A stretch of DNA of 46,462 nt from Bacteroidales bacterium. Its GTDB lineage: Bacteria; Bacteroidota; Bacteroidia; Bacteroidales; UBA932. Position numbers and translations under genes: made by a program. The notes below the pieces were generated by a model. That model had not been told where the DNA came from. It did no database searches and was given only the letters and a program-made list of their open reading frames with translations. Location: the NCBI GenBank assembly GCA_017447815.1, contig JAFSMS010000101.1, positions 1 through 46,462 of the forward strand, read 5' to 3'. Below, one piece after another: positions 4,086 through 46,462 of the stretch (position 1 is the stretch's first letter; the number at the start of each line of letters is the position of its first letter).

Positions 4086-4087
4086 TT

Positions 4088-5089: not shown

Positions 5090-5113
5090 CGGGATTTTTT
5101 ATAACTTTCGGCC

Positions 5114-5596: not shown

Positions 5597-5601
5597 AAAA
5601 A

Positions 5602-5698: not shown

Positions 5699-5703
5699 GG
5701 GTA

Positions 5704-5711
5704 CAAAGGTA
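5704..5711 (-). promoter_or_regulatory. -7 element (TACCTTTG) of the SRP RNA gene
   Basis: On the minus strand TACCTTTG ends five bases before the RNA 5' end, the expected spacing for a Bacteroidota promoter. The identical octamer precedes both tRNA-Asp and tRNA-fMet in this window. Confidence 0.75.
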
Positions 5712-5724
5712 GCAATTTTTTTTT

Positions 5725-7328: not shown

Positions 7329-7995
7329 ATCCGAAGATTCCCGTAATATGGGCCATCGTTCCGTTGGCCACCGCTTTTCCCGGCCCCGGGTCCATTTCCG
7401 GACCTTGGTTAGGGAGGACTTCTTCGTCATAGACGCAGAGGAAGGGCTTGGCGGGGAGGGTGCCGTTTTTGCGGAGGCGCTTCCGGAGGGCGGCGCCCAG
7501 CGGACAGCCGCGTACCTCGAAGAATTCCGCCACCCGTATTTTCGTGGGATCCATCTTGCAGGCGGCGCCCATGGCGCTGAAGAATCCGGCCTGCGTGGCG
7601 CTGGCTTCCAGGATGAGGTTGGCTTTGTCCGTCAGGGAATCGATGGCGTCGATGATAACGTCGTAGCCGCTCAGGTGGAAATCGGCCCCGAGGGTGTAGC
7701 GCTCCTGGAGGGCCGTCACTTCGCAGGCGGGGTTGATGGTGGCGAAGCGTTCCTTGAGAACCTCCACTTTGGGCCGGCCTACGGTTTCCAGCGTGGCGGG
7801 GAGTTGGCGGTTGATGTTGGTGATGTCCACGCAGTCCGGGTCAACCAGGGTGAGATGGCCAATCCCGCTCCGTACCAGGGATTCCGCGCACCAACTGCCC
7901 ACGCCGCCCACGCCGAAGAGGATGACGCGGGCATCGGCCAGGCGCTTCAGGGCTTCCGTGCCGACGAGGCGCTCGGTGCGGGAAAGGGGGTTCAT
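7279..7995 (-). CDS. tcdA: tRNA threonylcarbamoyladenosine dehydratase (TcdA/CsdL)
   Basis: This 238-residue E1-like enzyme cyclises t6A to ct6A at position 37 of ANN-decoding tRNAs using ATP. The nucleotide site is visible in VILFGVGGVGSWCAESLVRSG, followed by LVDPDCVDITNINRQ, the Asp-binding loop VIIDAIDSLTDK and the C-terminal RKNGTLPAKPFL segment typical of TcdA. It is the last gene of a leftward operon and overlaps the hydrolase gene by four bases. Its tail runs 50 bases into fur on the opposite strand. Confidence 0.92.
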   Translation of the reverse strand: MNPLSRTERLVGTEALKRLADARVILFGVGGVGSWCAESLVRSGIGHLTLVDPDCVDITNINRQLPATLETVGRPKVEVLKERFATINPACEVTALQERYTLGADFHLSGYDVIIDAIDSLTDKANLILEASATQAGFFSAMGAACKMDPTKIRVAEFFEVRGCPLGAALRKRLRKNGTLPAKPFLCVYDEEVLPNQGPEMDPGPGKAVANGTMAHITGIFGFTLAGLALRHMLDKSL

Positions 7996-14892: not shown

Positions 14893-17651
14893 AGGACATC
14901 ACCGTGGAAATCCCCCGGAACCGCCTGGTGGTGGTGACGGGCGTCTCCGGCAGCGGAAAAAGTTCCCTCGCCTTCGACACGCTTTTTGCCGAAGGGCAGC
15001 GCCGCTTTGCGGAAAGCCTTTCCTCTTATGCCCGCCAGTTCCTGGGCCGCATGGTGAAGCCCGACGTGGATGTCATCGAGGGCATTCCGCCGGCCATCGC
15101 CATCGAGCAGAAGGTGAATATCCGGAACCCCCGCTCCACCGTGGCCACCACGACGGAAATCTATGACTACCTGCGCATCCTGTTCGCCAGGATCGGACGC
15201 ACCTATTCGCCCGTGAGCGGGGAGGAGGTGAAAGCCCACACGGTGAAGGATGTGCTGGACGCCATCGACGACGGTAAGCCGCACGCCCTGTACATCCTGG
15301 CCGACCTCTGCTGGGACAGCCGCCAGGACCGGGTGGAACTGATGCTCGGCCTCAAGGAAGAAGGGTACGGCCGCCTGTTCTCCCCGCAGCAGGGCACCAT
15401 CTTCCAGATAGAAGATGTCCTGAAGATGGACGGCGACTACCCCGAAGGCCTCTGGCTCCTGGTGGACCGCGTAAAAACGTCCGCTGCCCTGGATGCCGAT
15501 CTGCGCACCCGTCTGAACGCCTCCGTCCAGGCGGCCTTCGACAAAGGCAACGGAGACATGGCCCTTTGGAGCCCGGAGGCGGAAGCCGGACTCCTGCGCT
15601 TTTCTTCGCGCTTTGAAAAAGACGGGCTGGTGTTCCGGCAGCCGGACGAGTACCTTTTCTCCTTCAACAGCCCGCTGGGCGCCTGCCCGGTGTGCGGCGG
15701 CCTGGGAAAGATCGTGGGCGTGAGCGAGGACCTGGTGGTCCCCGACAAGACCAAGAGCATCTACGACGGCGCCATCGCCTGCTGGCGGGGAGAGAAGATG
15801 AGTTGGTTCAGGGACCTGGTCATCAAGAACTCGGAAAAATACGGCATTCCCATCTTCGAACCCTATTGCAAACTCACTGAAGCGCAGAAACGCACCCTCT
15901 GGGAGTCTCGCGCCACCATGGGCGACGAAAGCACCATCGTGGGCATCAACGAGTTCTTCGAGTGGGTGGAAGCCAATCGTTATAAAATCCAGTATAAATA
16001 CATGCTCAGCCGCTATTCCGGCCGGACTACCTGCCATTCCTGCGGCGGCAGCCGGCTCCGGAAAGAGGCCCTGTATGTGAAAATCGGCGGAAAAACCATC
16101 CATGACCTCCTTTCCATGACCGTGGAGAGTCTTCTCCGCTGGTTCCGGGAGGTCCCGCTCACCGAGTATGAGCGGGACGTGGCGGGAAAAGCCGTCGAGG
16201 AAATCACTTACCGGCTCCAGTGCATCCAGGATGTGGGCTTGGGCTATCTGACGCTGAGCCGGACCATGAACACCCTCTCCGGCGGAGAGAGCCAGCGGGT
16301 GAACCTGGTGACGGCCCTCGGCAGTTCGCTGGTGGGGTCCATGTACATTCTGGACGAGCCGTCCATCGGCCTGCATCCCCGGGATACGGAGCGGCTCATC
16401 GCCGTGCTCCGGCGCCTCAGGGACATCGGCAATACCGTTGTGGTGGTGGAGCATGACCCCGAGATCATCCGGGCGGCCGACTGCCTCATCGACCTGGGCC
16501 CCAGGGCCGGCGTGAACGGCGGCGAGGTGGTCTTCCAGGGCGTGGTAGGGGAGGAAAGCACGGCCCAGACGGAGCGTTCCCTCACCCTCCAGTACCTCAA
16601 GGGCATCCGGAAGCCGTATCTGCGGGAGAAGAACCCCTGGCACTATTCCATTACGGTGCAGGGGGCCATGCAGAACAATCTCAAGGACATCGACGTCCGC
16701 TTCCCGCTGAATGTGTTGACCGTCGTGACGGGCGTTTCCGGCAGCGGCAAGAGTTCGCTGGTGGGCGATATCCTGTATCCGGCCCTGCACCGCCGCCTCA
16801 ATGAGACCGGAGACCTCCCGGGAACCTTCAAGGGACTCGCCGGAGACCTCAGCCGCATCACCCGCGTGGAGTATGTGGACCAGAATCCCATCGGCAAGAG
16901 CAGCCGTTCCAATGCCGTCACCTACCTCAAGGTTTACGACGACATCCGCAAACTCCTCTCCGAGCAGCAGTATGCCAAAATCAACGGCTTTACGCCTTCC
17001 TACTTCTCCTTCAACCAGGACGGCGGGCGCTGTCCCGAGTGCCAGGGAGACGGATTCGTGAAGATCGGGATGCAGTTCATGGCCGATGTCACCATGGTTT
17101 GCGAATCCTGCGGCGGCAAGCGCTTCAAGCCGGAGATCCTGGAAGTGAAATACCGCGACAAGAATGTCGATGATATCCTGAACATGAGCGTGGAGGAGGC
17201 CATGGCCTTCTTCGGCGCGCAGAAGGAGGAGGCGGCCCGGACCATTGCCGCCAAACTGCAGCCGCTGGCCGACGTAGGGCTGGGCTATATCAAGTTGGGA
17301 CAGCCCTCCAGCACGCTTTCCGGCGGTGAGAGCCAGCGCATCAAACTGGCGTATTTCCTCTCGCTGGCCGAAGGCGGCCGCGAAAAGATTCTTTTCATCT
17401 TCGACGAACCCACCACCGGCCTGCATTTCTACGATGTGGAGAAACTCCTGAAGGCCTTCGACGTGCTCATCGGCAAGGGACACACCGTGGTGGTCGTAGA
17501 GCACAACGTGGATGTGATCCGCAGTGCCGACTGGGTCATCGACCTGGGCCCAGACGCCGGCGACAAAGGCGGCGAGGTGGTCTTTGCCGGCACTCCGGAA
17601 GACCTTGTTAAAAATGGTAAAACCTTTACCGCACAGTATCTCAAAGCATGA
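14841..17651 (+). CDS. uvrA: Excinuclease ABC subunit A
   Basis: The 936-residue damage-recognition ATPase of nucleotide excision repair shows both ATP sites (GVSGSGKSSLAFDTL near residue 34 and a second GVSGSGKSSLVGD), ABC signatures LSGGESQRVNL and LSGGESQRIKL, and zinc-binding CxxC pairs (CPVCGG, CHSCGG, CPECQG, CESCGG). It works with UvrB and UvrC. The ATG at 14841 gives the standard start MPAEGNIIIRKARVNNLKDI. It overlaps the NusG paralogue by 52 bases and the next glycosyltransferase by four (ATGA), so translation is coupled across unrelated functions. Confidence 0.97.
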   Translation: MPAEGNIIIRKARVNNLKDITVEIPRNRLVVVTGVSGSGKSSLAFDTLFAEGQRRFAESLSSYARQFLGRMVKPDVDVIEGIPPAIAIEQKVNIRNPRSTVATTTEIYDYLRILFARIGRTYSPVSGEEVKAHTVKDVLDAIDDGKPHALYILADLCWDSRQDRVELMLGLKEEGYGRLFSPQQGTIFQIEDVLKMDGDYPEGLWLLVDRVKTSAALDADLRTRLNASVQAAFDKGNGDMALWSPEAEAGLLRFSSRFEKDGLVFRQPDEYLFSFNSPLGACPVCGGLGKIVGVSEDLVVPDKTKSIYDGAIACWRGEKMSWFRDLVIKNSEKYGIPIFEPYCKLTEAQKRTLWESRATMGDESTIVGINEFFEWVEANRYKIQYKYMLSRYSGRTTCHSCGGSRLRKEALYVKIGGKTIHDLLSMTVESLLRWFREVPLTEYERDVAGKAVEEITYRLQCIQDVGLGYLTLSRTMNTLSGGESQRVNLVTALGSSLVGSMYILDEPSIGLHPRDTERLIAVLRRLRDIGNTVVVVEHDPEIIRAADCLIDLGPRAGVNGGEVVFQGVVGEESTAQTERSLTLQYLKGIRKPYLREKNPWHYSITVQGAMQNNLKDIDVRFPLNVLTVVTGVSGSGKSSLVGDILYPALHRRLNETGDLPGTFKGLAGDLSRITRVEYVDQNPIGKSSRSNAVTYLKVYDDIRKLLSEQQYAKINGFTPSYFSFNQDGGRCPECQGDGFVKIGMQFMADVTMVCESCGGKRFKPEILEVKYRDKNVDDILNMSVEEAMAFFGAQKEEAARTIAAKLQPLADVGLGYIKLGQPSSTLSGGESQRIKLAYFLSLAEGGREKILFIFDEPTTGLHFYDVEKLLKAFDVLIGKGHTVVVVEHNVDVIRSADWVIDLGPDAGDKGGEVVFAGTPEDLVKNGKTFTAQYLKA

Positions 17652-18481
17652 AAACAGCCGTCCTCACCATGGTTCGCAACGACGATTTCTACCTTCGCAA
17701 GTGGGTGGAATATTACGGCCGTGAACTGGGGCGGGACAACCTCTATATCTTCTTCGACGGCAAGGACCAGGCGGTGCCGCCCTTCTGCGAAGGCACCCAC
17801 TGTGAGGTGCTGGAGAAGATCGGCACGGATGTGGTGTCCAATGACAAGGGGCGCGTGGCGGTGATGAGCGCCAAGGCCGCGGAACTCCTGGCGGCCGGCT
17901 ATGAGCGGGTAATCGGCACCGACGCCGACGAGTTCCTGGTGCCGGATCCGGCCCTCGGCAAGGGGCTGGCGGCCTATCTGGAAGGGATGCCCGTGAAGGG
18001 GTGCCTGTCGGCCCTGGGGCTGGATGTGGGGCAGAAACTGGGCGAAGAGGACGACATCCGGGAAGACGCCCCGTTCCTTTCGCAGCGGCACTATGCCCTC
18101 CTGGGCACGCGCTATACCAAGGCTTCCATCCTTTCGGAACCCCTGGAGTGGGGAAGCGGTTTCCACCGGGTGAAAGGACGGAATTTCCAGATCGCTCCGG
18201 ATTTGTATCTTTTCCACCTGGGCTATTTTGACAAGGCCCGCATCGAGGCGCGCTTCGCCGATTCTTCCCGCCGCGAACAGGGCTGGGAGCGGCATCTTCT
18301 CAAGCGCACCCGCGTGATCCGGACGGTGAGCCGGAAAAAGCCCCGTTCCTTTGCCTTCTGGACCCGTTTTGCACGCCTGTGCCAAACGCTGGTCCGTCCG
18401 CCCTATGCCTGGAACAAGCCGGCCATGTTCGGCCTGAAAATTGTGGTTCGTATTCCGGACCGTTTTGCCTCTGTGCTCTGA
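17648..18481 (+). CDS. Glycosyltransferase of the GT2_4/GT92-like type
   Basis: The 277-residue protein begins MKTAVLTMVRNDDFYLRKWV, typical of the glycosyltransferase family 2 variant that acts at remote capsule or lipopolysaccharide sites, and has the metal-binding GTDADEFLV. No membrane segment is obvious, so it acts at the cytosolic face. It overlaps uvrA by four bases and is followed two bases later by another glycosyltransferase. Donor and acceptor sugars are unknown. Confidence 0.82.
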   Translation: MKTAVLTMVRNDDFYLRKWVEYYGRELGRDNLYIFFDGKDQAVPPFCEGTHCEVLEKIGTDVVSNDKGRVAVMSAKAAELLAAGYERVIGTDADEFLVPDPALGKGLAAYLEGMPVKGCLSALGLDVGQKLGEEDDIREDAPFLSQRHYALLGTRYTKASILSEPLEWGSGFHRVKGRNFQIAPDLYLFHLGYFDKARIEARFADSSRREQGWERHLLKRTRVIRTVSRKKPRSFAFWTRFARLCQTLVRPPYAWNKPAMFGLKIVVRIPDRFASVL

Positions 18482-18483
18482 AT

Positions 18484-19398
18484 ATGGAAGAACCCCTCAT
18501 ATCCGTTGTCGTCCCCATCTATGGGGTGGAGGCCTATATCGGCGAGTGCGCCCGTTCCCTCTTGGCGCAGCCATCTGACAATGTGGAGTTTATCTTTGTA
18601 AACGACGGTACCCGGGACCGCTCCATGGAGGTGCTTTCCCAGGTGCTGGACGCCTGTCCCGGCCGCGCGGTGAAAATCATCAACCAGGCCAATGCCGGCC
18701 TGCCGCAGGCCCGCATGGCCGGTATCCGTGCCGCAGAAGGGGAGTATATCATGCATCTGGACGCGGACGACTGGCTGGAAGCCGGCGCCCTGGAACGCCT
18801 TTGCACCGAGGCCCGCACCACCGGGGCCGACCTCATCTACTACGATTTCTGGAAAGAGTACGGAACCCGCAGCAAACTGGACCGGGAAAGGGATTTCACC
18901 CCGGCCGGCAAGACCGGCTGGATGCGCCGCCTGTACCGGGACGGCGCCTATGGCTATGTCTGGTGCAAAATGGCCCGGAAAAGCCTTTACGAGGGCATTT
19001 TTGTCCCTCGCCACACCATGCACGAAGACGTGGTCTTCTCCACCCAACTTATCTTCCGTGCCGCCAGTTTCGTGCATCTGCGGCAGCCGCTGGTGCATTA
19101 TCGGCGCAACAATCCGTCCGCCTCGACGCGGGTGGCCAGGAAGATCCGCCGCGGGCAGATGGCCCGGAATTATCTGGACCTGTATGAGCATTACCGCGAC
19201 TCGCTGGCGGGGTCTCCGGTGGAGCCCGTGCTGAATGACCTGCTCCTGAGGGCGGCCTATGTGGGCTTCTCGCTGGACCGGGACCTGTTCCGGGAGCGTC
19301 CTTACCTGAAAGAGATGGCCCGCCATCTTCCCCTGATGCCTTTCCACCGGGTTCTGCTTGCGGAACAGTTGATTCTCAAACTGTGGCTCCTATGGTGA
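18484..19398 (+). CDS. Family 2 glycosyltransferase
   Basis: The 304-residue protein has the GT-A N-terminus ISVVVPIYGVEAYI, the FVNDGTRDRSM nucleotide loop and the metal-binding LDADDWLE, with HEDVVFSTQL as the acceptor-side ED motif. It probably adds one sugar to a surface glycan precursor. The ATG at 18484 directly follows the previous stop. The next gene overlaps it by seven bases and is clearly related (shared VNDGT, DADD and MHxD motifs), suggesting an old tandem duplication. Confidence 0.9.
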   Translation: MEEPLISVVVPIYGVEAYIGECARSLLAQPSDNVEFIFVNDGTRDRSMEVLSQVLDACPGRAVKIINQANAGLPQARMAGIRAAEGEYIMHLDADDWLEAGALERLCTEARTTGADLIYYDFWKEYGTRSKLDRERDFTPAGKTGWMRRLYRDGAYGYVWCKMARKSLYEGIFVPRHTMHEDVVFSTQLIFRAASFVHLRQPLVHYRRNNPSASTRVARKIRRGQMARNYLDLYEHYRDSLAGSPVEPVLNDLLLRAAYVGFSLDRDLFRERPYLKEMARHLPLMPFHRVLLAEQLILKLWLLW

Positions 19399-37697: not shown

Positions 37698-37770
<73 letters not shown>

Positions 37771-37829
37771 CTACAATAAAGCGCCAATCACTTGAATTTC
37801 AAGCGGTTGGTGTTTTTCATTTTGGATAA

Positions 37830-37851
37830 TTGGCGTGCAAATGGCGTGTTA
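37830..37851 (+). promoter_or_regulatory. Candidate integrase arm-binding sites, left end
   Basis: TTGGCGTG (37830-37837) and ATGGCGTGTTA (37841-37851) match repeats near the right end (46085-46115). Repeats shared by both ends of an element close to the att cores suggest arm-type sites for the integrase N-terminal domain. Confidence 0.4.
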
Positions 37852-37865
37852 CTACTTTTTGCACG

Positions 37866-37948
37866 CAAAAACCGCCCGAATCCAGGGTATTGCCATGGGG
37901 GCCGGATCGAGGCGGTTTGTTGCGTTATTGTACTACCTCATAGGGAAG
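37866..37948 (-). ncRNA. Candidate short RNA 1 at the element left end
   Basis: On the minus strand TACCTTTG (37955-37962) is followed by about 80 bases ending in a hairpin, AAACCGCC (37911-37918 side) pairing with GGCGGTTT (37869-37876 side), then TTTTT. The loop portion contains further complementarity (CGATCC/GGATTCG). No credible ORF lies within. Confidence 0.4.
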
Positions 37949-38000
37949 ACAACACAAAGGTAGGAAAAAGATTTGATTCCGCAAGAGCCGGCCCTGAAAC

Positions 38001-38096
38001 GGAAAAGGACGGGCGGGTTTTGTTCCGTCCGTCCTTCCCCGGAGCAGGTGCCGCTGCTGTGTGGTGGGGATCCAAATTGTCGTAGGGGTATATTCG
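38001..38096 (-). ncRNA. Candidate short RNA 2 at the element left end
   Basis: On the minus strand TACCTTTG (38103-38110) is followed by about 95 bases ending in the hairpin at 38005-38036 (AAGGACGGACGG with CCGCCCGTCCTT, one mismatch) and a short T run. A further TACCTTTG lies at 38150-38157. The unit repeats the promoter-terminator layout of candidate RNA 1. Confidence 0.4.
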
Positions 38097-38178
38097 TCTA
38101 TGCAAAGGTAGAACTTATTCGGGAAATGAGCAAACAATATCCAGTGCCTCAAAGGTAAGAAGAAAAAACCGGATGGCG

Positions 38179-38514
38179 CTAATTTTTCGGGGAATTGGCC
38201 CCTATCCAAGCAGCCATTTTGTTTCGAGTTGCTGCAAGCCTGGCTCTCATTTCGGCCTCTTTTCTCATGATGGCTGCAAAACCGTACCCGCATCTATCTG
38301 CCTCTTTTTTCAGTTCGTCAAGCATTTGGAGTATTATACTCTCACCTTCTTTGGCAAATTGCAGAGCAGCATCCGCCATCACCTTGTAAGCCTTGTCGCT
38401 GGCGGCCTTATACTGCGGCATGTATTTTCTCACTATTGGTGCGGCGAAGGGTGGTAATTTCTCGATATTTGATTCTACCCTATCCCATCCGCCTTTATTC
38501 TTCGTCTTTTCCAT
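38179..38514 (-). CDS. Small helical protein of unknown function
   Basis: The 111-residue protein is not recognised. It is mostly alpha-helical and charged (AYKVMADAALQFAKEGESII, KKEADRCGYGFAAIMRKEAE) with no signal peptide and ends in a short hydrophobic segment MAAWIGANSPKN. It is the last gene of the element before the left-end promoters and lies 74 bases after the tape-measure-like gene, which probably shares its transcript. Confidence 0.65.
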   Translation of the reverse strand: MEKTKNKGGWDRVESNIEKLPPFAAPIVRKYMPQYKAASDKAYKVMADAALQFAKEGESIILQMLDELKKEADRCGYGFAAIMRKEAEMRARLAATRNKMAAWIGANSPKN

Positions 38515-38588
38515 ATTGATTTTTTTTCGTTATTGTTTTGACTATCAGTCTCTTTCATCTTGCTACCATGGTGTATAAGAAACGCCGC

Positions 38589-40229
38589 CTATCTCCCCCA
38601 ATTGTTCATGGTTTTCTGTCCGGAAAGAACGATGTCGGAGCCCCGGATGGTTCCCTTGACATAGACGGTCAGTTCCGTGTTGAAGTCTTGCGTGGAAACG
38701 CCGCTGGATCCGCTGCTGGCGGAGGCTGTGCTGGTGCTTGTGCTGCGGCCGCCGGTCTGCGCCAGGGCAGAGAGGCCGGATTTGGCCGCCGCTCCGATAG
38801 CAATAAGGCTGGCACCGGCTGCTACAAGGCCGATGCCTTGCAGAGAACCGAGAGCGTCTTTCAAAGTCTCGATACCAAGGCCGGATGCCATGAGGATTTC
38901 ACCTTCATGGATGGCCATGTCGGCAAGTGGAGTGAGAAGAACCGAGATGATGCGGCCGGGATTGAAGTCCTCCAAGCCCGCCATCTGGTCGAACAGTTCC
39001 TGGATGCCGTCTGTAAATCCGCCGACGACCGACTGTGTGAATTCAGCGGCCAGTTCTTTTGCTCTATTTAGACCTTCCTCGTATTCTCCATAAAACTCAT
39101 CCCATTCGGACATGTCCGGAGGAACAATCTCGATGGGCTCCAGTTTGATGGACTTATACATGTCGGAGAGATCTTGTTCCAACTTCTCCATCTGCTGCTC
39201 TGTAACCTCTTCAATCCGGTACAGTGCCCGGTCGAGGGTCATCTGGAGAGTGTCGCGGCCTTGAGAAGAGCCACCGCCCCCTCCGGAACCGCGGTCCCTC
39301 TGGGCCTTTATGCTGTTGATTTCTTGTTGAATGCGGAGCGTCTCTTCGGAGTACCGGGCTTCCTGATGGTAGTAATCAGCGATGGCCTTCTCCACTTGAA
39401 GGCGGTTCTCATCGCCGATTTTTGCAGAATATCCAATTGCCAGGCGTGCAAAATCACCTTTCCCAGCCTTGGTGGCGTTGGCCATCATCGTCCGGCCAAA
39501 ATAGCCGTTCAGCCCCCCGTTTTTATTGACCTGCTCGGCCGCTTGAAGGTATTGTTCTCCCTCTTTGGTTCCCAGCCACTCGAAGAATTCAGTGAATTTG
39601 TTCCGCATGGCCTTGAGTTGGCTATCCGTCCGGTCCTTCATGTTGACACCTACGCGCTGCATATAGTAGTCCAGCGTGGCATCCTTTATCCGCTCTCGGC
39701 CCCTTGTGGGGTTTTTCTCTAACTGCTCGTAAATCCTGAGCAGTTCCTTGCCCTTTGCGATACGTTCGTCATCCGTAAGATTCTGGTTCCTAAGACCTAC
39801 CCGCAGTTCATTGATGTGCTTTAGTTGCCTGGAGAGCGATATGTTATAGCTTGTATTGATTTCGCCCATGGCATCTTGGGCATCATATAGGTCCCGTGCA
39901 AGCCTGTTTGCCTCACGGAGGTCCGATATCAAGTTGGAAAAGTTAAGGGAAGCGATGGACGTCTTGAGGGTGTCGAACATTGCCGACATACCAGCGGTAA
40001 ACCTCCCGATAGTGTCTCCGAGGACCTGGTTCTGCTTGGAGAGTTCTTTTACTGTGGCGATTGCCCCTACTACGGCTGCGCTGACGGCAGCAAAGGCTAT
40101 CTTTGCGCCTCCGCCGATGCCCTTAATGGCGGAAAGCAGAGACTTTGATTCGCCCCCTGCTTCCTTCATTCCCCGGCTGAATTCATCCTTTTTCAGCCCG
40201 AGTTTTACAAACAAATCTCCGATTTTCAT
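38589..40229 (-). CDS. Phage tail tape-measure-like protein
   Basis: The 546-residue protein starts MKIGDLFVKLGLKKDEFSRG, the N-terminal pattern of tape-measure proteins in Bacteroidota phages, with a following Gly/Ala-rich hydrophobic segment (GAKIAFAAVSAAVVGAIATV), long coiled-coil helices, a Gly/Ser linker near residue 325, and a second hydrophobic stretch (GIGLVAAGASLIAIGAA). It is short for a tape measure, and no tail tube, baseplate or capsid gene is nearby. It has its own promoter. The ATG at 40229 is preferred over one at 40253 on family resemblance. Confidence 0.65.
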   Translation of the reverse strand: MKIGDLFVKLGLKKDEFSRGMKEAGGESKSLLSAIKGIGGGAKIAFAAVSAAVVGAIATVKELSKQNQVLGDTIGRFTAGMSAMFDTLKTSIASLNFSNLISDLREANRLARDLYDAQDAMGEINTSYNISLSRQLKHINELRVGLRNQNLTDDERIAKGKELLRIYEQLEKNPTRGRERIKDATLDYYMQRVGVNMKDRTDSQLKAMRNKFTEFFEWLGTKEGEQYLQAAEQVNKNGGLNGYFGRTMMANATKAGKGDFARLAIGYSAKIGDENRLQVEKAIADYYHQEARYSEETLRIQQEINSIKAQRDRGSGGGGGSSQGRDTLQMTLDRALYRIEEVTEQQMEKLEQDLSDMYKSIKLEPIEIVPPDMSEWDEFYGEYEEGLNRAKELAAEFTQSVVGGFTDGIQELFDQMAGLEDFNPGRIISVLLTPLADMAIHEGEILMASGLGIETLKDALGSLQGIGLVAAGASLIAIGAAAKSGLSALAQTGGRSTSTSTASASSGSSGVSTQDFNTELTVYVKGTIRGSDIVLSGQKTMNNWGR

Positions 40230-40273
40230 TTCTTTAAGCTGGTTTGTTATCAATTAAACAAGTGAAGACATGG

Positions 40274-40281
40274 CAAATATA
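40274..40281 (-). promoter_or_regulatory. -7 element (TATATTTG) of the tape-measure-like gene
   Basis: Perfect TAnnTTTG on the minus strand, 44 bases before the ATG, in the only sizeable gap of the left gene block. Confidence 0.55.
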
Positions 40282-40338
40282 AATGTTTCCCACCAGGCGG
40301 TAAATAGCAACACTTTGTTATCCGGTCCGAGGTGCGAA

Positions 40339-40785
40339 TCATTGTTTAGTAGTTGATACTGGAGCCGGCTGCTCCGCCTCGATCGCTGGCCAATACTCCC
40401 GGACTATTCCCCCGCCGGTGTCGGTCATTGTTTCCCGTACACCTGGGCCGGATTTCCAGCGCTGGAACGATTCCAGGACCTCCGCCGGGGTCAAAGGTAT
40501 TGCCGGCACGGTGTCGGCCTCCCCCTCCACGGGTATTTCGGCGAAACGGATTGCCACATAATCGCTACCGTTTCCCATCCATCTTTCAAGCTTTCCGCCG
40601 GGGGCGCTTATGCTGATATCATAGCCGACGCCGGCCTCCCCGTATCGTTCTACGGCCTGGGAGAATACCACTTGCCCGGCCTCATCTACGGCGCACGATA
40701 TCAAGCGAAAAGGGGATTTCCCAGACCCTCCCGCCAGGATAAAGGCCAAATACTGCCTGTTACTGATTCTCTCCGCGTCTTTCAT
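40339..40785 (-). CDS. Protein of unknown function in the element
   Basis: The 148-residue protein is not recognised. It contains YLAFILAGGSGKSPFRLISC early on, a beta-rich middle (VGYDISISAPGGKLERWMGN) and an acidic Pro-rich end. No membrane segment is seen. It overlaps the terminase-small-like gene by 26 bases in another frame, which supports cotranscription. A structural or assembly role is possible from position only. Confidence 0.6.
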   Translation of the reverse strand: MKDAERISNRQYLAFILAGGSGKSPFRLISCAVDEAGQVVFSQAVERYGEAGVGYDISISAPGGKLERWMGNGSDYVAIRFAEIPVEGEADTVPAIPLTPAEVLESFQRWKSGPGVRETMTDTGGGIVREYWPAIEAEQPAPVSTTKQ

Positions 40786-41119
40786 TGTTGTATCTCTCTA
40801 TCTCCCTGATCCTGTCGGCAATCCTGTCTATAACCTCATCGGGGGCCGTTTGCAGTAGTTTGGTCATTTCGTTGTACTCCGCTTGTATCGAGGCCTCCAC
40901 GGAAACGGCCTGCTGCTTGGGTACAATGTAGTTGAGCAACAGGGCAAACAATTTCACCCGTTCCCCCGGCTCCATCCCTTTGAGGTCCTTTTCTATCTGC
41001 TTGCGGTTGGCATCCACCAACTGCGTTAGCCACTCTTTCACGGTGGAGGTGGCTTTGTTGGGGGTGCCTTTGGCACGGCCTCCCAGCCGGCCGCGGCCGT
41101 CATTTTTGGATCTTGGCAT
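40760..41119 (-). CDS. Terminase-small-subunit-like / DUF5681-type protein
   Basis: The 119-residue basic protein starts MPRSKNDGRGRLGGRAKGTP, a Gly/Arg/Lys-rich start followed by NKATSTVKEWLTQLVDANRK and LLLNYIVPKQQAVSVEAS. This resembles small proteins found beside packaging genes in Bacteroidota prophages, which may recognise DNA for packaging. A large terminase is absent, so it might redirect a helper phage terminase; that is speculation. Confidence 0.55.
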   Translation of the reverse strand: MPRSKNDGRGRLGGRAKGTPNKATSTVKEWLTQLVDANRKQIEKDLKGMEPGERVKLFALLLNYIVPKQQAVSVEASIQAEYNEMTKLLQTAPDEVIDRIADRIREIERYNNERRGENQ

Positions 41120-41142
41120 ATCTTGGGCAATACTAAAACTTA

Positions 41143-41409
41143 CTACTTTTGTAACGGTCCAGGGGGCGGCGTATATGGCAAATTGTTGCTATTCCACCGA
41201 TCCAGGAAATACACAAGGCGGCGAGCATTGTCGAAACGGATCTGCACCCCGTTCGCAGCGTTGTAAACCGTCCCCCAATGGCAGCCTGTGGCCCTTGCGA
41301 TCTCTGCGATATTGAGGCCGGAACGGGCTATCTTTTCGGCTATCTCGTTGAGGCCTTTTTCCAGGTCGGCCCTGTATTCGGGCTCCGGGATATCTCTTTC
41401 TTCTGCCAT
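41143..41409 (-). CDS. Small helix-turn-helix DNA-binding protein
   Basis: The 88-residue protein has a Cro/CI-like helix-turn-helix, NIAEIARATGCHWGTVYNAANG, and a Pro-rich tail. It could be the element repressor or an activator of the left gene block. The ATG at 41409 leaves a 47-base gap to the loader gene; an in-frame ATG at 41499 would extend 30 residues into that gene and looks less natural. Confidence 0.7.
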   Translation of the reverse strand: MAEERDIPEPEYRADLEKGLNEIAEKIARSGLNIAEIARATGCHWGTVYNAANGVQIRFDNARRLVYFLDRWNSNNLPYTPPPGPLQK

Positions 41410-41456
41410 CGTTTCCTGTTCGGTTGGCGGTGTATCACATACGCACCCCCTGGGCA

Positions 41457-42218
41457 TCATACGCGGAACGATCTTGCACCGTAGGGGATCTTCTCGCACA
41501 TTTCGTTGAGGCGGTCCATAATCCGTGGGCCGTAGCCTGGAAATTGGGTCGTTCCGGCTATCTCTGCATCGCCCAGGTTGGTAGTTATCACCGTAGGCAG
41601 GGCGCGATCATAGCGCCTTTGGATCAGGTCGGCGATAGGCAGGTACTCCGTTCCGAAACTGTTCACCCGCTTGGGCTCCGGGCCTATATCGTCCAGGATC
41701 AGGAAGGATATTTCACAAATTTGGTTGAATTGGTCGCGGTGATCCTTCGCCATCGTGGCAACCGCCATGGCTGTTGTATAGGTGGGCACTATCACGGCGT
41801 TTTCCTTGCGCTCAAACTCTCGCACAACCTCGGGCGGGAAAAAGGCCTGGGCCTCCCGTTGCAGGCGCTCGCGGCCAGCTGGGCCGAAGGATTCCCGCAG
41901 GCGTTTGGCCATCGTTTGAAGGGCCCGCGCCATCGTGGTTTTCCCGGTCCCTGGGCGGCCGTAGAGCAATAAAGAATACTTGCGGGTGGGGTTGGTCAGC
42001 CACTCCGCTACGCCGCCAATTTGGGCCAGGGTGTCCGGGGTCGGTGTGAAGGCGTATTGGCCTCTTTCCACCTCAACGCGGTAGGCATCAGTAAGGAGCC
42101 GGGCGGCTGTTTCCTTGTTGATCGGGTAGCAAAAGCGCCGGCGGGCGGGCCTCTCGTTGCGAAGGTCCACCGCGCAGGCATCTACGGCACGATTCAGTAT
42201 TGTTTCTAGGCTCTCCAT
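41457..42218 (-). CDS. DnaC/IstB-like AAA+ helicase loader
   Basis: The 253-residue ATPase has Walker A LLLYGRPGTGKTTMARAL, Walker B FLILDDIGPEP, sensor-1 VITTNLGDAEI and an arginine-finger region PRIMDRLNEM. Proteins of this type load the host replicative helicase at phage or element origins, as lambda P and DnaC do. It starts four bases after the initiator-like gene, matching the O-P order of lambdoid replication modules. The ATG at 42218 is chosen; upstream in-frame sequence lies in the initiator gene. Confidence 0.85.
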   Translation of the reverse strand: MESLETILNRAVDACAVDLRNERPARRRFCYPINKETAARLLTDAYRVEVERGQYAFTPTPDTLAQIGGVAEWLTNPTRKYSLLLYGRPGTGKTTMARALQTMAKRLRESFGPAGRERLQREAQAFFPPEVVREFERKENAVIVPTYTTAMAVATMAKDHRDQFNQICEISFLILDDIGPEPKRVNSFGTEYLPIADLIQRRYDRALPTVITTNLGDAEIAGTTQFPGYGPRIMDRLNEMCEKIPYGARSFRV

Positions 42219-42222
42219 AGGC

Positions 42223-42990
42223 TTAAAACATGGTAGATTTGAAATTGTTTTGGTCATACTCGGGGATATCGGTACGGGCGCGGGTCGAGGGACTCGCAGT
42301 TGCCGGCCTGGGCGCTTTCGGCGGGTAGATTGTCGCATAGTTGGCGGCCATCGCCTCCGACACGATCCGGCGGGCCGTGTCCGGGTCACCGTTGGATAGT
42401 TCCTTCAATCGGTTGTAAAATTGCGTAAGCCCCTTGCGGCCCTTGTACGCCTGTTTCAGCTCCCGCTTGTACTCGATCCAGTCCCGGACTATATCCAGGA
42501 ATCGCGGGTCCTCAATGATAGATAATAATATATTTATATCTTCTCTTGGTGTTGTGGGATTGTGTGCGGTTTCGTGTGTGGCCTCCGCCGTTTCCCGTGT
42601 GCGGTTTCGTGTGTGGCCCTCCGCTGGCTGGCCCTCGTAACTATCAAATTCACAAATCGTTATGATAGTAAAGCCGCGTGCGGGGTCGTGTGCGGTTTGC
42701 TCCCCTTGACGGCGTGCGGGTCCGTGTGTGGTTTCGTGTGTGAGGCCGTCCCTTTTGAGGGTGTCCAGGGAGGAACGGACTTGCCACAAAGACAGGCCGC
42801 AAGCGGTTGATAGTGAACGGATTGAGGCCACAACTTGCCCCCGTTCTATCCGAATCCCGTTCCAGACTTTCGGCTCCCTGTTGGCCCGCAAAAGGAGGTG
42901 GATAAACAAGGCTAATTGTTGAGGCTTCCGGCTCAACGGCATATCCAGCAACCCCCGCGGTAGTTTGATATATCCGGGCTTGGTGTCCAT
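42223..42990 (-). CDS. Replication initiator-like protein with embedded iterons
   Basis: The 255-residue protein has an N-terminal winged-helix region (YIKLPRGLLDMPLSRKPQQL, VVASIRSLSTACGLSLWQVR) and a C-terminal helical domain (IIEDPRFLDIVRDWIEYKRE), like phage replisome organisers of the O/DnaD type. Between them lies a low-complexity segment rich in Thr, His and Arg (THETTHGP, HTRNRTRET, THETAHNP) that is the by-product of repeated DNA. Placed directly before the helicase loader, it probably binds the origin inside its own gene. Confidence 0.72.
   Translation of the reverse strand: MDTKPGYIKLPRGLLDMPLSRKPQQLALFIHLLLRANREPKVWNGIRIERGQVVASIRSLSTACGLSLWQVRSSLDTLKRDGLTHETTHGPARRQGEQTAHDPARGFTIITICEFDSYEGQPAEGHTRNRTRETAEATHETAHNPTTPREDINILLSIIEDPRFLDIVRDWIEYKRELKQAYKGRKGLTQFYNRLKELSNGDPDTARRIVSEAMAANYATIYPPKAPRPATASPSTRARTDIPEYDQNNFKSTMF
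42515..42747. other. Putative replication origin: iterons plus AT-rich tract
   Basis: Copies of GTGTGCGGTTTCGTGTGTGG lie at 42562-42581 and 42597-42616 (identical, 35 bp apart), GTGTGTGGTTTCGTGTGTGA at 42724-42743 (18 of 20), with partial copies at 42676-42695 and 42688-42698. The AT-rich stretch ATAATAATATATTTATAT at 42523-42540 adjoins them and could melt. CTATCA/TGATAG (42641-42668) forms an inverted repeat in the middle. Confidence 0.65.
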
Positions 42991-43002
42991 ATCGCGCCGC
43001 CG

Positions 43003-43326
43003 TTATTCGGGTTTTCCATTGGCAAGGATTGCCCGGCAGTCGCTCCGCCGGTACTTAACTGCTCCGCCAATGCGTACCCCCTCAATGTAGCCGGCCCTCC
43101 GCCAGCGGTAAAGGGTCCTATCGCATACTCCCAGCATCTTCCCGGCCTCTTGTGCGGTGAGCATCTTTTCCTCTTTCTCCGCCCGTTCCCGGGCCTCAAT
43201 CTCCGCCCGGTATCTTGCCATCGTGTCGGTAACGATCGAGGACCCCAGGGCCAACAGGTCGGCCGCCTGTACCGTAATACTCACTTGCGGGTACTGCTTT
43301 GCGATTTCCAAAATGTTCGTTTCCAT
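43003..43326 (-). CDS. Excisionase-family helix-turn-helix protein
   Basis: The 107-residue protein ends in an HTH_17/MerR-like excisionase domain: MLTAQEAGKMLGVCDRTLYR then GYIEGVRIGGAVKYRRSDCR. The N-terminal half is helical and may dimerise. It may act as directionality factor or as regulator of the replication genes, which start 12 bases downstream. Its promoter is not obvious; AACCTTTG on the minus strand at 43386-43393 is a weak candidate. Confidence 0.75.
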   Translation of the reverse strand: METNILEIAKQYPQVSITVQAADLLALGSSIVTDTMARYRAEIEARERAEKEEKMLTAQEAGKMLGVCDRTLYRWRRAGYIEGVRIGGAVKYRRSDCRAILANGKPE

Positions 43327-43482
43327 CGGTTGCGTAATTGCGTTGTTTTACCTATCCCGGCGGCCACTATGCCGGCCCCCGGCGTGACAAAGGTTGTACA
43401 ATCCGCAACAATAAAAAAGAGGCAACAGGCGGCAACCTGGAATTATTGCCCCTAATCCTCAACGGGGGCGGCTACAATAAAG

Positions 43483-43509
43483 GAGGGGCAACGCGAATTG
43501 TTGCCCCTC
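43483..43509 (-). terminator. Terminator of the integrase transcript
   Basis: GAGGGGCAAC at 43483-43492 pairs perfectly with GTTGCCCCTC at 43500-43509 around seven bases; on the minus strand it is followed by CTTTATTG. It lies just after the stop of the 303-residue unknown gene. The remaining gap 43327-43482 shows GGCAAC repeats but nothing else clear. Confidence 0.65.
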
Positions 43510-43534
43510 TTGTTGGTCAAAGGTGAAAAATGGA

Positions 43535-44446
43535 CTATACCCCGGAAAGAATTGCGCCAATATCGGCGTGCGTGTCGCAATACTTCTCGCGATTCCAGCG
43601 GGTGCGGAATTTTGACAATATGGTGGGGTCTATTGCCAGGCCGAATACCGCCGGGGCCACCTTTTCGCACATTTCCCGGGTGATTCCGTCAATGGTGGTG
43701 CTCCCGCCCATTTGGGCCACAAAGTCCAGGATCTGCCGGGGGCATACCTCCCGGTTGCGCTTGTCGGTCCATATCCAGGAAATACGGCCCTGTCGGTCAG
43801 CCGCCGGGTCAAAGGCGTTGCAAAAATCCTGGGCGGCATCCGGGGCGCTGCCGTCAATGTAGCCGGCATCCACAAGGGCGACGTATATCCGGGCCAATTC
43901 TTGGCGATTGTGGGAGGTTTGGAGGCTATACGGGGGTTTTCCTATCCCTGCGCCCGTTGCGGCCTCTGCGGGCTCGCTGGTGGCCTCTGCGGGCTCGCTG
44001 GTGGCCCGGACCGGAACCACCGGTGGGATGGATAGGTCGGGGAAATACTCGCTCACCATGAGCGCCAAACTGGTGAAATAGTCCTCCATGGTCCCCCACT
44101 CCACACCCGGCCGTCCTGGATCATCCGGGATGTCGGGCCATTCGTGCCCGGCCTGGTGGCAAATCCTTGCCACCCTGGACAGCATGGACACCAGGTGAAC
44201 AACACCGGGGGTGGCCGGTGATCCCTGGACAAACAACGCCTCCAACATGTCCCGGACGGGTTGCCGGTTGGCTTGGAGGGTGTCGGCCGTGGTCCTCAAC
44301 GCCCGCAACAAATAGGCCCGTTCCGGTTCGGTCGGTGGTGGCCCCACCTCATCGGTGAACCCCTGGCTCAAATAGTGTTGGCCTTGTGGCGTATATAGTA
44401 CACATCGCAACGACCTGGTGACGGTTTCAATGGGTTTCATGGTCAA
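43535..44446 (-). CDS. Unknown protein cotranscribed with the integrase
   Basis: The 303-residue protein is not recognised. The N-terminal half is helical (PERAYLLRALRTTADTLQAN, VVHLVSMLSRVARICHQAGH), the middle has a duplicated ATSEPAE linker, and the C-terminal part (QELARIYVALVDAGYIDGSA through ILSKFRTRWNRE) resembles small Bacteroidota mobile-element proteins ending in a helical DNA-binding-like domain. It overlaps the 79-residue gene by four bases, so both are coupled to the integrase transcript. Confidence 0.7.
   Translation of the reverse strand: MTMKPIETVTRSLRCVLYTPQGQHYLSQGFTDEVGPPPTEPERAYLLRALRTTADTLQANRQPVRDMLEALFVQGSPATPGVVHLVSMLSRVARICHQAGHEWPDIPDDPGRPGVEWGTMEDYFTSLALMVSEYFPDLSIPPVVPVRATSEPAEATSEPAEAATGAGIGKPPYSLQTSHNRQELARIYVALVDAGYIDGSAPDAAQDFCNAFDPAADRQGRISWIWTDKRNREVCPRQILDFVAQMGGSTTIDGITREMCEKVAPAVFGLAIDPTILSKFRTRWNREKYCDTHADIGAILSGV
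43961..44002 (+). repeat. Two tandem 21-bp repeats in the unknown gene
   Basis: Unit 43961-43981 is repeated exactly at 43982-44002 and encodes the duplicated seven-residue linker ATSEPAE/A. The number of units may vary by slippage. Confidence 0.85.
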
Positions 44447-44682
44447 AGTTGGTCACTCCCTCCAACGGCCCACACCTCAACGGAATAGGCTATTTCGTTG
44501 TTCAACATCCCGGCAACGGAACCCCATTTTTCGGCATTGGATTCCATCGTTTGTTCCGCATAGGATTTGCCACCCCGGGCCACAAGGGCATCAAAATAGA
44601 GTTGTTTGGCCGTTTCCAGGGATTTAAGGGCCTGCAACATCTTTTCGGTCACCGGCCCGATGGTGGGTTTGTTCTTGTCCAT
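44443..44682 (-). CDS. Small unknown protein after the integrase
   Basis: The 79-residue protein is not recognised. It has a helical N-terminal part (PVTEKMLQALKSLETAKQLY) and no membrane segment. It starts 26 bases after the integrase stop and overlaps the next gene by four bases, which supports it as real coding sequence. Confidence 0.65.
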   Translation of the reverse strand: MDKNKPTIGPVTEKMLQALKSLETAKQLYFDALVARGGKSYAEQTMESNAEKWGSVAGMLNNEIAYSVEVWAVGGSDQL

Positions 44683-44708
44683 ATCGTTGAATTTTGGTTG
44701 TCAAAGTC

Positions 44709-46046
44709 TTACACCAACATGTCCACCAATTCCCGCCTCATATCCTCATCGATGTCCCTGTATCGGGCAAAGGCCCGGGAGCCCTCACAATGGCCTGAAA
44801 GTTTGGCGATCAAATTCGGGTCTTTTACCTGCTTGTAGAGGTTGCCCACGAAGGTACGGCGGGCCAGGTGGCTGCTTGCGATCTCGTTCAGGGGGCGCTG
44901 CACCTCTTTGCGGGTCATAGGGTCCAGGATCGTAACGGGGCGGGTGAGGCCGGCCATGGTGAAGACCTCTTTTATTGCATCGTTGTACTTTTGGCAGGAC
45001 ACGAAGGGCAACAGGGCGGCCCGGTTGGGGTCGGCGTAGCGCTCCACGATCTCGGCGGCTATGCTATTGAGGGGGACCCGGACAATATCGCCGCGTTCGT
45101 CCTTCGTTTTGCTGGGCACATACTCCACGCCGCCGGCCACAAGGTTTTCCCGGGTCAGTTTCAACAGGTCCGACACCCGGCAGCCGATCAGGCACTGAAA
45201 TACGAAAATATCCCGCTGGACGGCCAGCCCGGGGCGCTTGGAAAGGTCAAACCGATAAAGGGCGTTTCTTTCCTCTACGGTGATATAATAGGGCGTTCCA
45301 TAGACGGGCGCACCGATACTGAAACGCAAAAACGGGTCATTGTCCGTGTTGCCATTTTTGACCGCGTGGGAAACAACCGCCCGCACAATGTGCATACGGT
45401 CTATTACCGTGTTGCTGCTGCGCTTGACTACGGGGCGGGCCTCCGGGCACACGGCCAACAATTCGGGGTGCTGGGCTATTATCTCGTTTTCGCTCCGCAG
45501 GTAAGCATCGAAGGCCCGCAGATCGTCCGGGGTGAGGGTGTCCAACTGCAGCCGGGAGCCGGTGAAGGCTTCGTAACGCAACAGGCAGCGCTGCACGGTT
45601 GCGGCCATCCTCTTGCGCTGCTGCGACACCTGCAGGCCGGCCAGGTAGTCGGCGAAGGCATCGGCCAGGTACACCGTGCGCCGCAGATCCTCGTACTTTT
45701 CAGGGAAATTGTAGCGGTCCACCGTGGAGGCCAGCCAATCGGCGGGGAGCGCCTTTTTACCGGCACCGGCCTGCAAAAAGGCCTCCATCACCGCAGCCCG
45801 CAGGCCTTGCAGGCGGGTGTTTATCTCGTTGAGGGATTCCACAAGCCGCCTTTGTTCCTCGTTCATCAGCCGCCAGCCGGGGACCTTCACCGCCTGGGTG
45901 TCGGCGTTCCAATACTCTGCGGGTGCATATACATTGGTTTTGGCTCGCTGGTTGATCCGGCTGCCAACTACAAAGCGGGTCAGGATTTCGTGCAGGCCGG
46001 TGCCCTTGTCAGCCTTCTTGGAAAGGGAATAGTAAAGAGTAGCCAT
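44709..46046 (-). CDS. Tyrosine recombinase (integrase) of the element
   Basis: The 445-residue protein has an arm-binding-like N-terminus, a SAM-like core-binding domain and a catalytic domain with Arg in IGCRVSDLLKL, HxxR in SSHLARRTF, the third catalytic-type His in LSGHCEGS, and the nucleophile Tyr in RAFARYRDIDED. This is the Bacteroidota phage/ICE integrase architecture (phage_int_SAM_5). It should recombine the tRNA-fMet core with the element core. It lies at the end distal to the tRNA and reads inward from its promoter at 46070-46077. Confidence 0.95.
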   Translation of the reverse strand: MATLYYSLSKKADKGTGLHEILTRFVVGSRINQRAKTNVYAPAEYWNADTQAVKVPGWRLMNEEQRRLVESLNEINTRLQGLRAAVMEAFLQAGAGKKALPADWLASTVDRYNFPEKYEDLRRTVYLADAFADYLAGLQVSQQRKRMAATVQRCLLRYEAFTGSRLQLDTLTPDDLRAFDAYLRSENEIIAQHPELLAVCPEARPVVKRSSNTVIDRMHIVRAVVSHAVKNGNTDNDPFLRFSIGAPVYGTPYYITVEERNALYRFDLSKRPGLAVQRDIFVFQCLIGCRVSDLLKLTRENLVAGGVEYVPSKTKDERGDIVRVPLNSIAAEIVERYADPNRAALLPFVSCQKYNDAIKEVFTMAGLTRPVTILDPMTRKEVQRPLNEIASSHLARRTFVGNLYKQVKDPNLIAKLSGHCEGSRAFARYRDIDEDMRRELVDMLV

Positions 46047-46069
46047 AATGTAGTATCAATAACGCACTA

Positions 46070-46077
46070 CAAAGGTA
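46070..46077 (-). promoter_or_regulatory. -7 element (TACCTTTG) of the integrase gene
   Basis: Perfect match on the minus strand 23 bases before the integrase ATG. Its setting CAAAGGTAGGAAAA recurs at 37955-37968 by the left end. Confidence 0.65.
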
Positions 46078-46084
46078 GGAAAAG

Positions 46085-46115
46085 CACGCCAATTTTACAA
46101 CTTTTTGGCGTGTTA
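46085..46115 (+). promoter_or_regulatory. Candidate integrase arm-binding sites, right end
   Basis: CACGCCAAT (46085-46093) and TTGGCGTGTTA (46105-46115) form an inverted pair and match the left-end copies at 37830-37851. The rest of the 46116-46257 gap shows no gene. Confidence 0.4.
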
Positions 46116-46257
46116 TTTGTCCGTATGTGTCCCGCGGTGTCGGTCTGTTCGGCCATCGGGCCCGGGCGCTGGATTGTTGCAAGTGTTGATTATCAGCGAT
46201 TTACGGAACGGCGGCGGCTGGACACCTTCGCACGCCACAGGATAGCCACGGAAATAT

Positions 46258-46278
46258 TTCGAGTCCTGCCTCCGCTAC
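46258..46278 (+). other. attR: second 21-bp core repeat
   Basis: Exact copy of 37751-37771. The sequence to its left (GGAAATA) is not tRNA-like, so this copy belongs to the element end and not to a second tRNA. Confidence 0.9.
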
Positions 46279-46320
46279 GAAACGAAACTACGGCAGCCAG
46301 ACGGCTGCCGTTTTCGTTTC
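46279..46320 (+). terminator. Original tRNA-fMet terminator, displaced by the element
   Basis: CGGCAGCC (46291-46298) pairs with GGCTGCCG (46303-46310), and the outer GAAACGAAA (46279-46287) with TTTCGTTTC (46312-46320). It begins directly after attR. Before integration it would have followed the tRNA immediately. The last 142 bases of the window (46321-46462) show nothing I can support. Confidence 0.7.
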
Positions 46321-46462
46321 TCGGTAATGATGCAAAAAACAGTTGGTGACGGCCGCCGCGAGGAGGGCCATTTTCCAGAGCCCACCGCAGCGTCGAGCCG
46401 TAGCCACCGAGCCTGGTAATGCGAGGTGGCGTCACCGCTTCTTTTTACCCTTCTCAGTATTA

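Follow-up and report, generated by a model that had tools for sequence, protein, structure and literature searches.

A small tRNA-integrated element with a lone tape-measure gene, a candidate phage satellite of Bacteroidales

Phage satellites are known from Proteobacteria and Firmicutes. The excerpted text of PMC11389934 names P4-like satellites, phage-inducible chromosomal islands (PICIs), capsid-forming PICIs (cf-PICIs), PICI-like elements (PLEs), phage-inducible chromosomal minimalist islands (PICMIs), virion-encapsidated integrative mobile elements (VEIMEs), Tycheposons and soil satellites, and mentions satellites in some marine and soil groups. Among the titles and abstract openings of the literature surveyed, no account of phage satellites in Bacteroidota (Bacteroidetes) was found. 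Here we analyse an 8,528-bp element integrated in a tRNA-Met(CAT) gene of a gut-type Bacteroidales bacterium. It occupies positions 37751-46278 of the window, by which we mean the whole stretch of 46,462 nucleotides analysed; the window is the entire contig C94 (JAFSMS010000101.1) of a fragmented assembly that is 86% complete. The element combines integration and replication genes with a probable terminase small subunit (TerS) and a tail tape-measure protein (TMP), and is best read as a member of a class of small elements found repeatedly at tRNA genes. We put the probability at roughly 55% that the element, with its lone tape measure, is a Bacteroidales phage satellite of the PICI-like kind.

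Satellite-borne tape measures have been described in Vibrio cholerae, where PLE11 virions hold the PLE11 TMP in place of the phage TMP and have tails that are about 10 nm shorter; deletion of tmp lowers transduction by ~99.9% in PLE11, 96% in PLE1 and 99% in PLE4 (PMC12987554, Nature 2026, excerpt). Chimeric tails are accordingly shown for PLE11 and inferred from the tmp deletions for PLE1 and PLE4, and the same paper mentions putative tmp genes also in PLE-like elements and cf-PICIs, for some cf-PICIs in the legend of Extended Data Fig. 10. A TMP gene on a small island is the feature that the Bacteroidales element shares with PLEs. PLEs, however, carry a tail chaperone, PLE11 also a baseplate hub, their helper ICP1 is contractile-tailed and their host is Vibrio (PMC12987554, excerpt), whereas the element has a TMP with no recognisable chaperone or hub, from a family found in phages with an HK97-like gene order. 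Two phage chaperones used as queries gave no match beside the element's tmp, and the open reading frame (ORF) next to it, o148, belongs to no family. As no tail chaperone was recognised by these queries, the element is not filed as a PLE.

Nor is it filed as a PICI, although the likeness extends to a small island with a terminal integrase, a regulator or excisionase, replication genes and, probably, a packaging gene (excerpt of PMC11364771, in part general background). The integrase, the regulator/excisionase and the replication module of the element stand in PICI order. Differences lie in the Bacteroidales host, the lone TMP, the size (8.5 kb versus ~10-15 kb) and a DnaD-like plus DnaC-like pair at the place where PICIs have primase-rep genes. 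Putative tmp genes link the element to some cf-PICIs (PMC12987554, excerpt), but these make their own capsids (PMC11389934, excerpt), and 15 queries detected no capsid, portal or terminase large subunit (TerL) gene in the element. With satellites in general it has in common that it is small and integrated, has its own integration module and lacks a full set of virion genes.

The element is bounded by TTCGAGTCCTGCCTCCGCTAC, an exact 21-bp repeat whose first copy is the 3' end of the tRNA gene (Table 1). This sequence occurs only twice in the 2.5-Mb assembly (its reversed control not at all), and a chance origin was rejected in view of its length, copy number and position at a tRNA end. In genome G199, hisS, the tRNA gene and a terminator similar (83%) to that of the window are contiguous; because the terminator found after attR adjoins the tRNA there, the site is empty in this relative. 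Genome G221 matches the att-plus-terminator stretch at 97%. A first-pass annotation of the window had noted the att repeats, which were recovered here as a unique pair, and had placed them in a tRNA-fMet gene; ARAGORN returns tRNA-Met(cat), and three G-C pairs in the anticodon stem are what we take to be the mark of an initiator tRNA. The motif TGGCGTGYWA, picked after inspection of the element ends, has three matches in the 46-kb window, all just inside those ends (expected 0.24). This clustering would fit arm-type integrase sites; a shorter form of the motif, with one mismatch allowed, was not enriched over the whole window.

Eleven open genes, all on the minus strand, cover ~87% of the element. 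Read from attR, they encode the integrase, o79, o303, an excisionase-like helix-turn-helix (HTH) protein, a DnaD-like protein, a DnaC-like ATPase, hth118, o119, o148, the TMP and o111. An intact integrase, an excisionase-like HTH protein, an initiator with a DnaC-like loader, and undamaged genes running in one direction had all been read from the letters of the sequence, and each of these readings was borne out by open frames and profile matches (Table 1). So was the remark that there are almost no structural genes: with 26 phage queries, genes for TerL, portal, capsid, tail tube, chaperone, gp10 and the distal tail all went undetected, and lysis genes were not recognised in the element either. 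The locus is an integrated element with an open gene set, in which the full-length TMP is the only recognised virion gene.

Taken alone, the TMP of the window matches no Pfam or PHROG profile. In the family alignment, viral relatives extend over its full length (54-56% in tblastn for L172-L174), and 13 TMPs align at 29-60% identity, with the top value of 60% to L172. Among these 13, phrog_2854 was matched by two (best 5.5e-5) and phrog_12506 and phrog_167 by one each, and the TMP gene follows a tail chaperone gene in L172 and L173. The earlier label "tape-measure-like" is thus upheld by family and synteny, if not by a PHROG match of the window protein itself. A fragment was considered and rejected, as the alignment runs end to end. 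The protein is nevertheless 31-38 residues shorter than its four nearest relatives (546 versus 577-584 aa), and a gap lies around columns 420-470 of the 653-column alignment. Against solved structures, the family profile returned nothing meaningful (best E 0.029).

Other structural genes accompany the TMP in all 31 viral contigs examined (L172-L202; among 80 matches listed), at four of the eight TMP loci from 199 genomes of the family (L024-L031) and at five of the eight from 393 genomes of the order (L379-L386). The seven TMP loci without structural matches (L028-L031, L379, L380, L385) have longer TMP frames of 796-1010 aa.

Likewise, o119 matches no Pfam or PHROG profile, and the earlier label "terminase-small-like" has its support in synteny. 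In the small element L098 a relative of o119 overlaps the start of TerL (Terminase_3C, 2.4e-20; phrog_2, 1.2e-37). Among viral contigs, 42 of 76 matches were examined, several of them near-duplicates, and TerL was sought by six queries: it starts at most 225 nt from the end of the o119 match in 15 of the 42 and 675 nt away in a sixteenth, and several further contigs have a terminase-sized ORF after the match that lies outside query recognition. The element's order of an HTH gene before the TerS-like gene is also found in the TMP-bearing phage contigs L172 and L197. Judged by this gene order, o119 is probably a terminase small subunit.

To place the element among its relatives, three aligned integrases were searched against 84,980 species, each represented by one genome, and the best 80 of 179 relatives were taken. 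A locus was counted if a repeat of at least 12 bp joined a tRNA 3' end to the stretch before the integrase, with the integrase in between. Because no flank exceeded 10 kb and the search for repeats spanned distances of 2.5-16 kb, the screen covers elements up to ~11 kb and larger ones are invisible to it. Eighteen of the best 80 loci carry such a tRNA-anchored repeat (12-21 bp) and define elements of 4.7-11.2 kb, at a chance expectation of ~0.007 such repeats per tRNA by an arithmetic estimate. The target is tRNA-Leu in 16 and tRNA-Arg and tRNA-Lys in one each, and in all 18, as in the window, tRNA and integrase occupy opposite ends of the element. The weakest cases are L139 (12-bp repeat, large reverse-strand ORF) and L098, L123 and L155 (13 bp); L100, with a 23-bp repeat and 5.9 kb, is additional to the 18. 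According to their records, the integrase loci come from Rikenellaceae, Prevotellaceae, Tannerellaceae and unplaced Bacteroidales/Bacteroidetes.

Gene clustering reveals a usual layout of integrase, variable gene, excisionase-like HTH, a replication module of several kinds and small genes; the excisionase-like HTH (cluster 1) is present in 15 of 19 elements, window included. Closest in content among the loci searched are L092 and L093. The former (the same contig stretch as L036; 6.9 kb, tRNA-Arg) has an integrase of 54-55% identity followed by o303 and excisionase in order, and the latter (5.6 kb, tRNA-Leu) has integrase, o303, excisionase, DnaD and DnaC in the order of the window element. 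The o303 relatives are 33% (L092/L036) and 29% (L093) identical, each over 103 aa. Comparable elements are therefore present elsewhere. The gene set for which the first-pass annotation had proposed a search (integrase, initiator, loader and tape measure) recurs only in part: no TMP was detected in 92 integrase loci (90 distinct), where the only matches (E 0.077 and 0.14) are integrases.

Two integrase trees were inferred, one of 122 integrases by a quick method (tree 1) and one of 41 hand-picked rows by a careful method (tree 2). On tree 1 the window integrase pairs with L092 (support 100, starred) within a set of 28 rows (97, starred), which consists of 11 tRNA-bounded elements including the window, 14 unassigned loci, two relaxase elements and one viral contig (L252, 8.1 kb); 30 of the 37 viral-contig integrases fall into another set of 51 rows (84, not starred). 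On tree 2 the window and L092 are again together (100/100, starred), and the set of 16 rows that holds them (84/99, not starred) consists mostly of small elements. The two placeable full-size phages with the TMP family, L190 and L265/L176 (L265 and L176 lie on one contig), are found among viral contigs (95/90, starred), and the viral label is clustered on the integrase tree (0 of 500 shuffles as low).

The element's gene content points to the use of tails made by a helper virus, into which the element would fit its own ruler. A helper phage would trigger excision, the DnaD- and DnaC-like proteins would load the host helicase and thereby replicate the element, and its TerS would steer the helper's TerL and capsids to element DNA. 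Inside helper-made tail tubes, the TMP of the element would replace that of the helper, yielding a chimeric tail with a length set by the satellite. As the element's TMP is shorter than the nearest phage TMPs, our own scaling predicts tails shorter by a few nm. More tentatively, Bacteroidales may host a widespread, undescribed class of tRNA-integrated satellites with an exchangeable integration-replication core, often a TerS and one or a few borrowed morphogenesis genes (TerL, neck, head-morphogenesis, a piece of a tail protein, tape measure), the present element perhaps rebuilding helper tails without a recognised partner tail gene, invented independently of the Vibrio PLEs. If correct, this would add a class of phage satellites for Bacteroidota, a dominant gut phylum, and would test how far the recently reported takeover of tail assembly by satellites can be generalised. 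It would also provide the simplest case, a single tape-measure gene, for asking whether a satellite can reset virion tail length or evade tail-directed defences.

Several observations weigh against a satellite. Excision, helper dependence and packaging are predicted here from sequence alone. A second satellite with a TMP was found neither in the 92 integrase loci nor among the eight other TMP loci in 393 genomes of the order, of which the three without a structural match have longer, distant TMPs. One phage TerL query, run without a positive control, found no TerL in the 86%-complete host assembly. A TerS-type gene was recognised by sequence in only six of the 18 other elements; the six queries detected no TerL in 26 of the 42 viral contigs with an o119 relative, and the o119 relative of Bacteroides phage BF1-TP2 (annotated DUF5681) is not beside a terminase. 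Furthermore, the small-element label needs 16 changes on tree 1 (52 of 500 shuffles as low) and 11 on tree 2 (291 of 500), and seven of 19 small elements fall in a far part of tree 1. Because this label is unclustered on the integrase trees, the small elements form a class by layout and not one clade. The original suggestion of a Bacteroidota phage satellite is still the best reading, with similar elements recurring and the integrase grouping with theirs, and it falls short in the recurrence of the TMP.

Among the other explanations, an unlikely but serious one is a prophage pruned by internal deletions, which lost its late genes, TerL through tail chaperone, as well as whatever followed the TMP, and was left as a dying or dead remnant with intact ORFs. 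Phage contig L264 has the order integrase, excisionase, DnaD, DnaC, and in L172 and L197 the HTH and TerS genes precede the TMP as in the element. A related integrase (43-46%) and the TMP family occur together in the full-size phages L176/L265 and L190, and the lack of another TMP-bearing satellite points in the same direction. These temperate-type phages, together with the fragments L172-L175, have the TMP family in common with the element, L172 also the HTH-TerS order and L265 and L190 a related integrase; they differ in being contigs of 33-41 kb (L190, L176) with structural modules, and their integrases belong to another set. Moreover, all genes of the element are open, and the two deletions would need clean ends between genes. 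When 653 ORFs of 35 TMP loci were compared with the element, 56 matched the TMP and two the integrase (L188, L190), and the ten remaining matches (E 0.002-0.043) are as expected by chance. The integrase and o303 are nearest to those of small elements, and no phage relatives were found for o148 and o111. The genome samples searched contained no close full-length relative carrying these genes at this site (300 genomes of the genus each for o303, integrase and DnaD; for the TMP, 199 genomes at family and 393 at order level). Given the integrase placement and the 653-ORF search, a small element that acquired a TMP is favoured over a recent deletion of a TMP phage; an older prophage reduction is possible and compatible with the phage gene order and the integrases of full-size phages, which also counts against a satellite.

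It is less probable still that the TMP is a weapon, which, produced in the course of infection, competes with the phage TMP, poisons tail assembly and protects the host. Tail assembly is indeed targeted by satellite- or prophage-borne defences, Tai (PMC11364771, excerpt) and Rta (PMC12987554, excerpt), and a lone structural gene could be dominant negative. A full-length protein with conserved N- and C-termini, however, fits assembly better than blocking, and the best hit of a PADLOC scan of the element (E 0.029) was to hth118. That the element is an integrative mobilizable element which acquired phage genes and transfers by conjugation, using an oriT and a relaxase supplied from elsewhere, appears improbable. 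L069 and L070, from the same genus, carry a relaxase (PF03432, ~1e-7) beside a related integrase, excisionase and DnaC and lie in the 28-row integrase set, a further point against a satellite; the core module is accordingly common to mobilizable elements, and satellites and mobilizable elements seem to exchange cores in Bacteroidales. The relaxase, though, is theirs, and the TerS-like gene and the TMP are the element's: no relaxase family was found among the element proteins scanned, two relaxase queries gave none in the 18 related elements either, and no role in conjugation is known for TerS or TMP. A plain mobilizable element was rejected on the lack of a relaxase. Finally, a phage fragment could have been joined to the chromosome by misassembly in a metagenome-type assembly; the contig ends 184 bp past attR in a repeat. 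Its end sequence (46313-46461) reappears at several further contig ends in this assembly, and hence a repeat probably broke the assembly there. Misassembly is very improbable in view of the exact att repeats at a tRNA end, the host-type terminator after attR, the single gene direction and the arm-site candidates at both ends.

Table 1. Features of the element and its integration site (window coordinates)
Feature	Positions	Strand	Evidence and remarks
tRNA-Met(cat), target gene	37698..37771	+	Last 21 bp (37751-37771) are attL; ARAGORN, repeats; site unoccupied in genome G199
Two candidate integrase arm-type sites TGGCGTGYWA	37831..37851	+	Adjoin attL; putative function
o111	38179..38514	-	Without family
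Tail tape-measure protein, 546 aa	38589..40229	-	Full length; ATG 40229; 29-60% to 12 phage/prophage TMPs
o148	40339..40785	-	Directly upstream of tape measure; without family
o119, probable terminase small subunit	40760..41119	-	Family in L098, L117, L123, L142, L102; TerL synteny
hth118, small HTH protein	41143..41460	-	Directly before TerS-like gene; phmmer 4.7e-9 to L197, 4e-4 to L172
DnaC-like helicase-loader ATPase	41457..42218	-	phrog_50 2.5e-24; ORF 41457-42389, start probably ATG 42218 as judged from start codons
DnaD-like replication initiator / helicase loader, 255 aa	42223..42990	-	phrog_2514 9e-13; 35% to L093
Excisionase-like HTH_17 protein, 107 aa	43003..43326	-	PF12728 7.7e-12; phrog_66 2.1e-12; TIGR01764 slightly below cut-off
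o303, between integrase and excisionase	43535..44440	-	ATG 44440 (ORF from TTG 44446); same-place relatives L092/L036, L093
o79	44443..44682	-	Weak relatives in small elements L100, L252 (phmmer 0.0011 and 1.1e-5)
Tyrosine integrase, 445 aa	44709..46046	-	PF00589, PF13102; phrog_1; trees
Candidate arm-type sites, attR side	46084..46115		46106-46115 on +; 46084-46092 on -, shorter motif; putative function
attR, exact 21-bp copy of tRNA 3' end	46258..46278	+	Terminator-like stem next, at 46290-46311

Searches with the remaining genes were largely negative. No family was found for o303 and o148 in Pfam, PADLOC and NCBIfam, or for o111 in PADLOC, NCBIfam and PHROG, and o111 matched only itself in 219 genomes of the family. 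One match of o148 over 65 residues to a housekeeping-type protein was taken as chance. The TMP, o303, o148 and the whole element had no match in phage records, and single-sequence pattern scans for close relatives of the TMP, DnaC and the initiator returned nothing.

Single morphogenesis genes also occur in related elements. The six elements with a TerS-type gene are L098, L117, L123 and L142 (o119 family), L151 (Sf6-like TerS) and L092 (weak TerS; phrog_2538, 2.9e-4). L098 (9764-17406) is a 7.6-kb tRNA-Leu element of Prevotellaceae with TerS-like and TerL genes and no capsid or portal gene by the queries used. In the att-bounded element L151 (5375-7606), TerS (phrog_309, 5.4e-22) is accompanied by a gp10-like protein (phrog_5377, 9e-47; phrog_5, tail completion/neck, 1e-4) and by a protein of 391 aa; this aligns with a portion of a 1360-aa protein from viral contig L277 that itself has tail PHROG matches. 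L136 (15145-19468), without att bounds in the data examined, has TerS, a gp10-like protein and a head-morphogenesis-type protein (phrog_7625, head morphogenesis, 2.4e-70; phrog_115, minor head; phrog_16625, ADP-ribosyltransferase-named), and in L134 (15938-16921) a related integrase lies upstream of TerS and a neck-type gp10, as in L136 and L151. Other cargo within the 18 elements includes an HSDR_N protein in L105 and a radical-SAM protein in L122.

Two further members of the 28-row integrase set differ in content. The 8.1-kb viral-collection contig L252 (IMGVR_UViG_3300021387_004136) has genes for an integrase, an o79-like protein, an excisionase-like protein and a DnaB helicase, and yielded no match to the structural markers that were looked for. 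On a Prevotellaceae contig, the integrase of L113 (5464-12894) has as neighbours genes for TerL, a portal, a protease-like protein and a capsid, of which portal and capsid were assigned by Pfam, and the locus is either a prophage or a capsid-forming satellite.

The same tRNA-Met gene is occupied in genome G201, of the same genus, by an 18.3-kb island (189-18604 in L394, which is G201:C43:36000-55990) that lies between two full tRNA copies. The island encodes an integrase (17199-18527) and a Cas9 of 1215 aa (3727-7374; Pfam RuvC_III, HNH_4 and Cas9_a); from a CRISPR-type array at about 7.6-8.0 kb, six spacers were extracted. One of the six agrees with the TMP-family phage contig L182 in 29 of its 30 positions, and none of 300 shuffles of this spacer reached E 1e-4. 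On the strength of this match, which speaks for the satellite reading, phages of the TMP group probably infect this genus.

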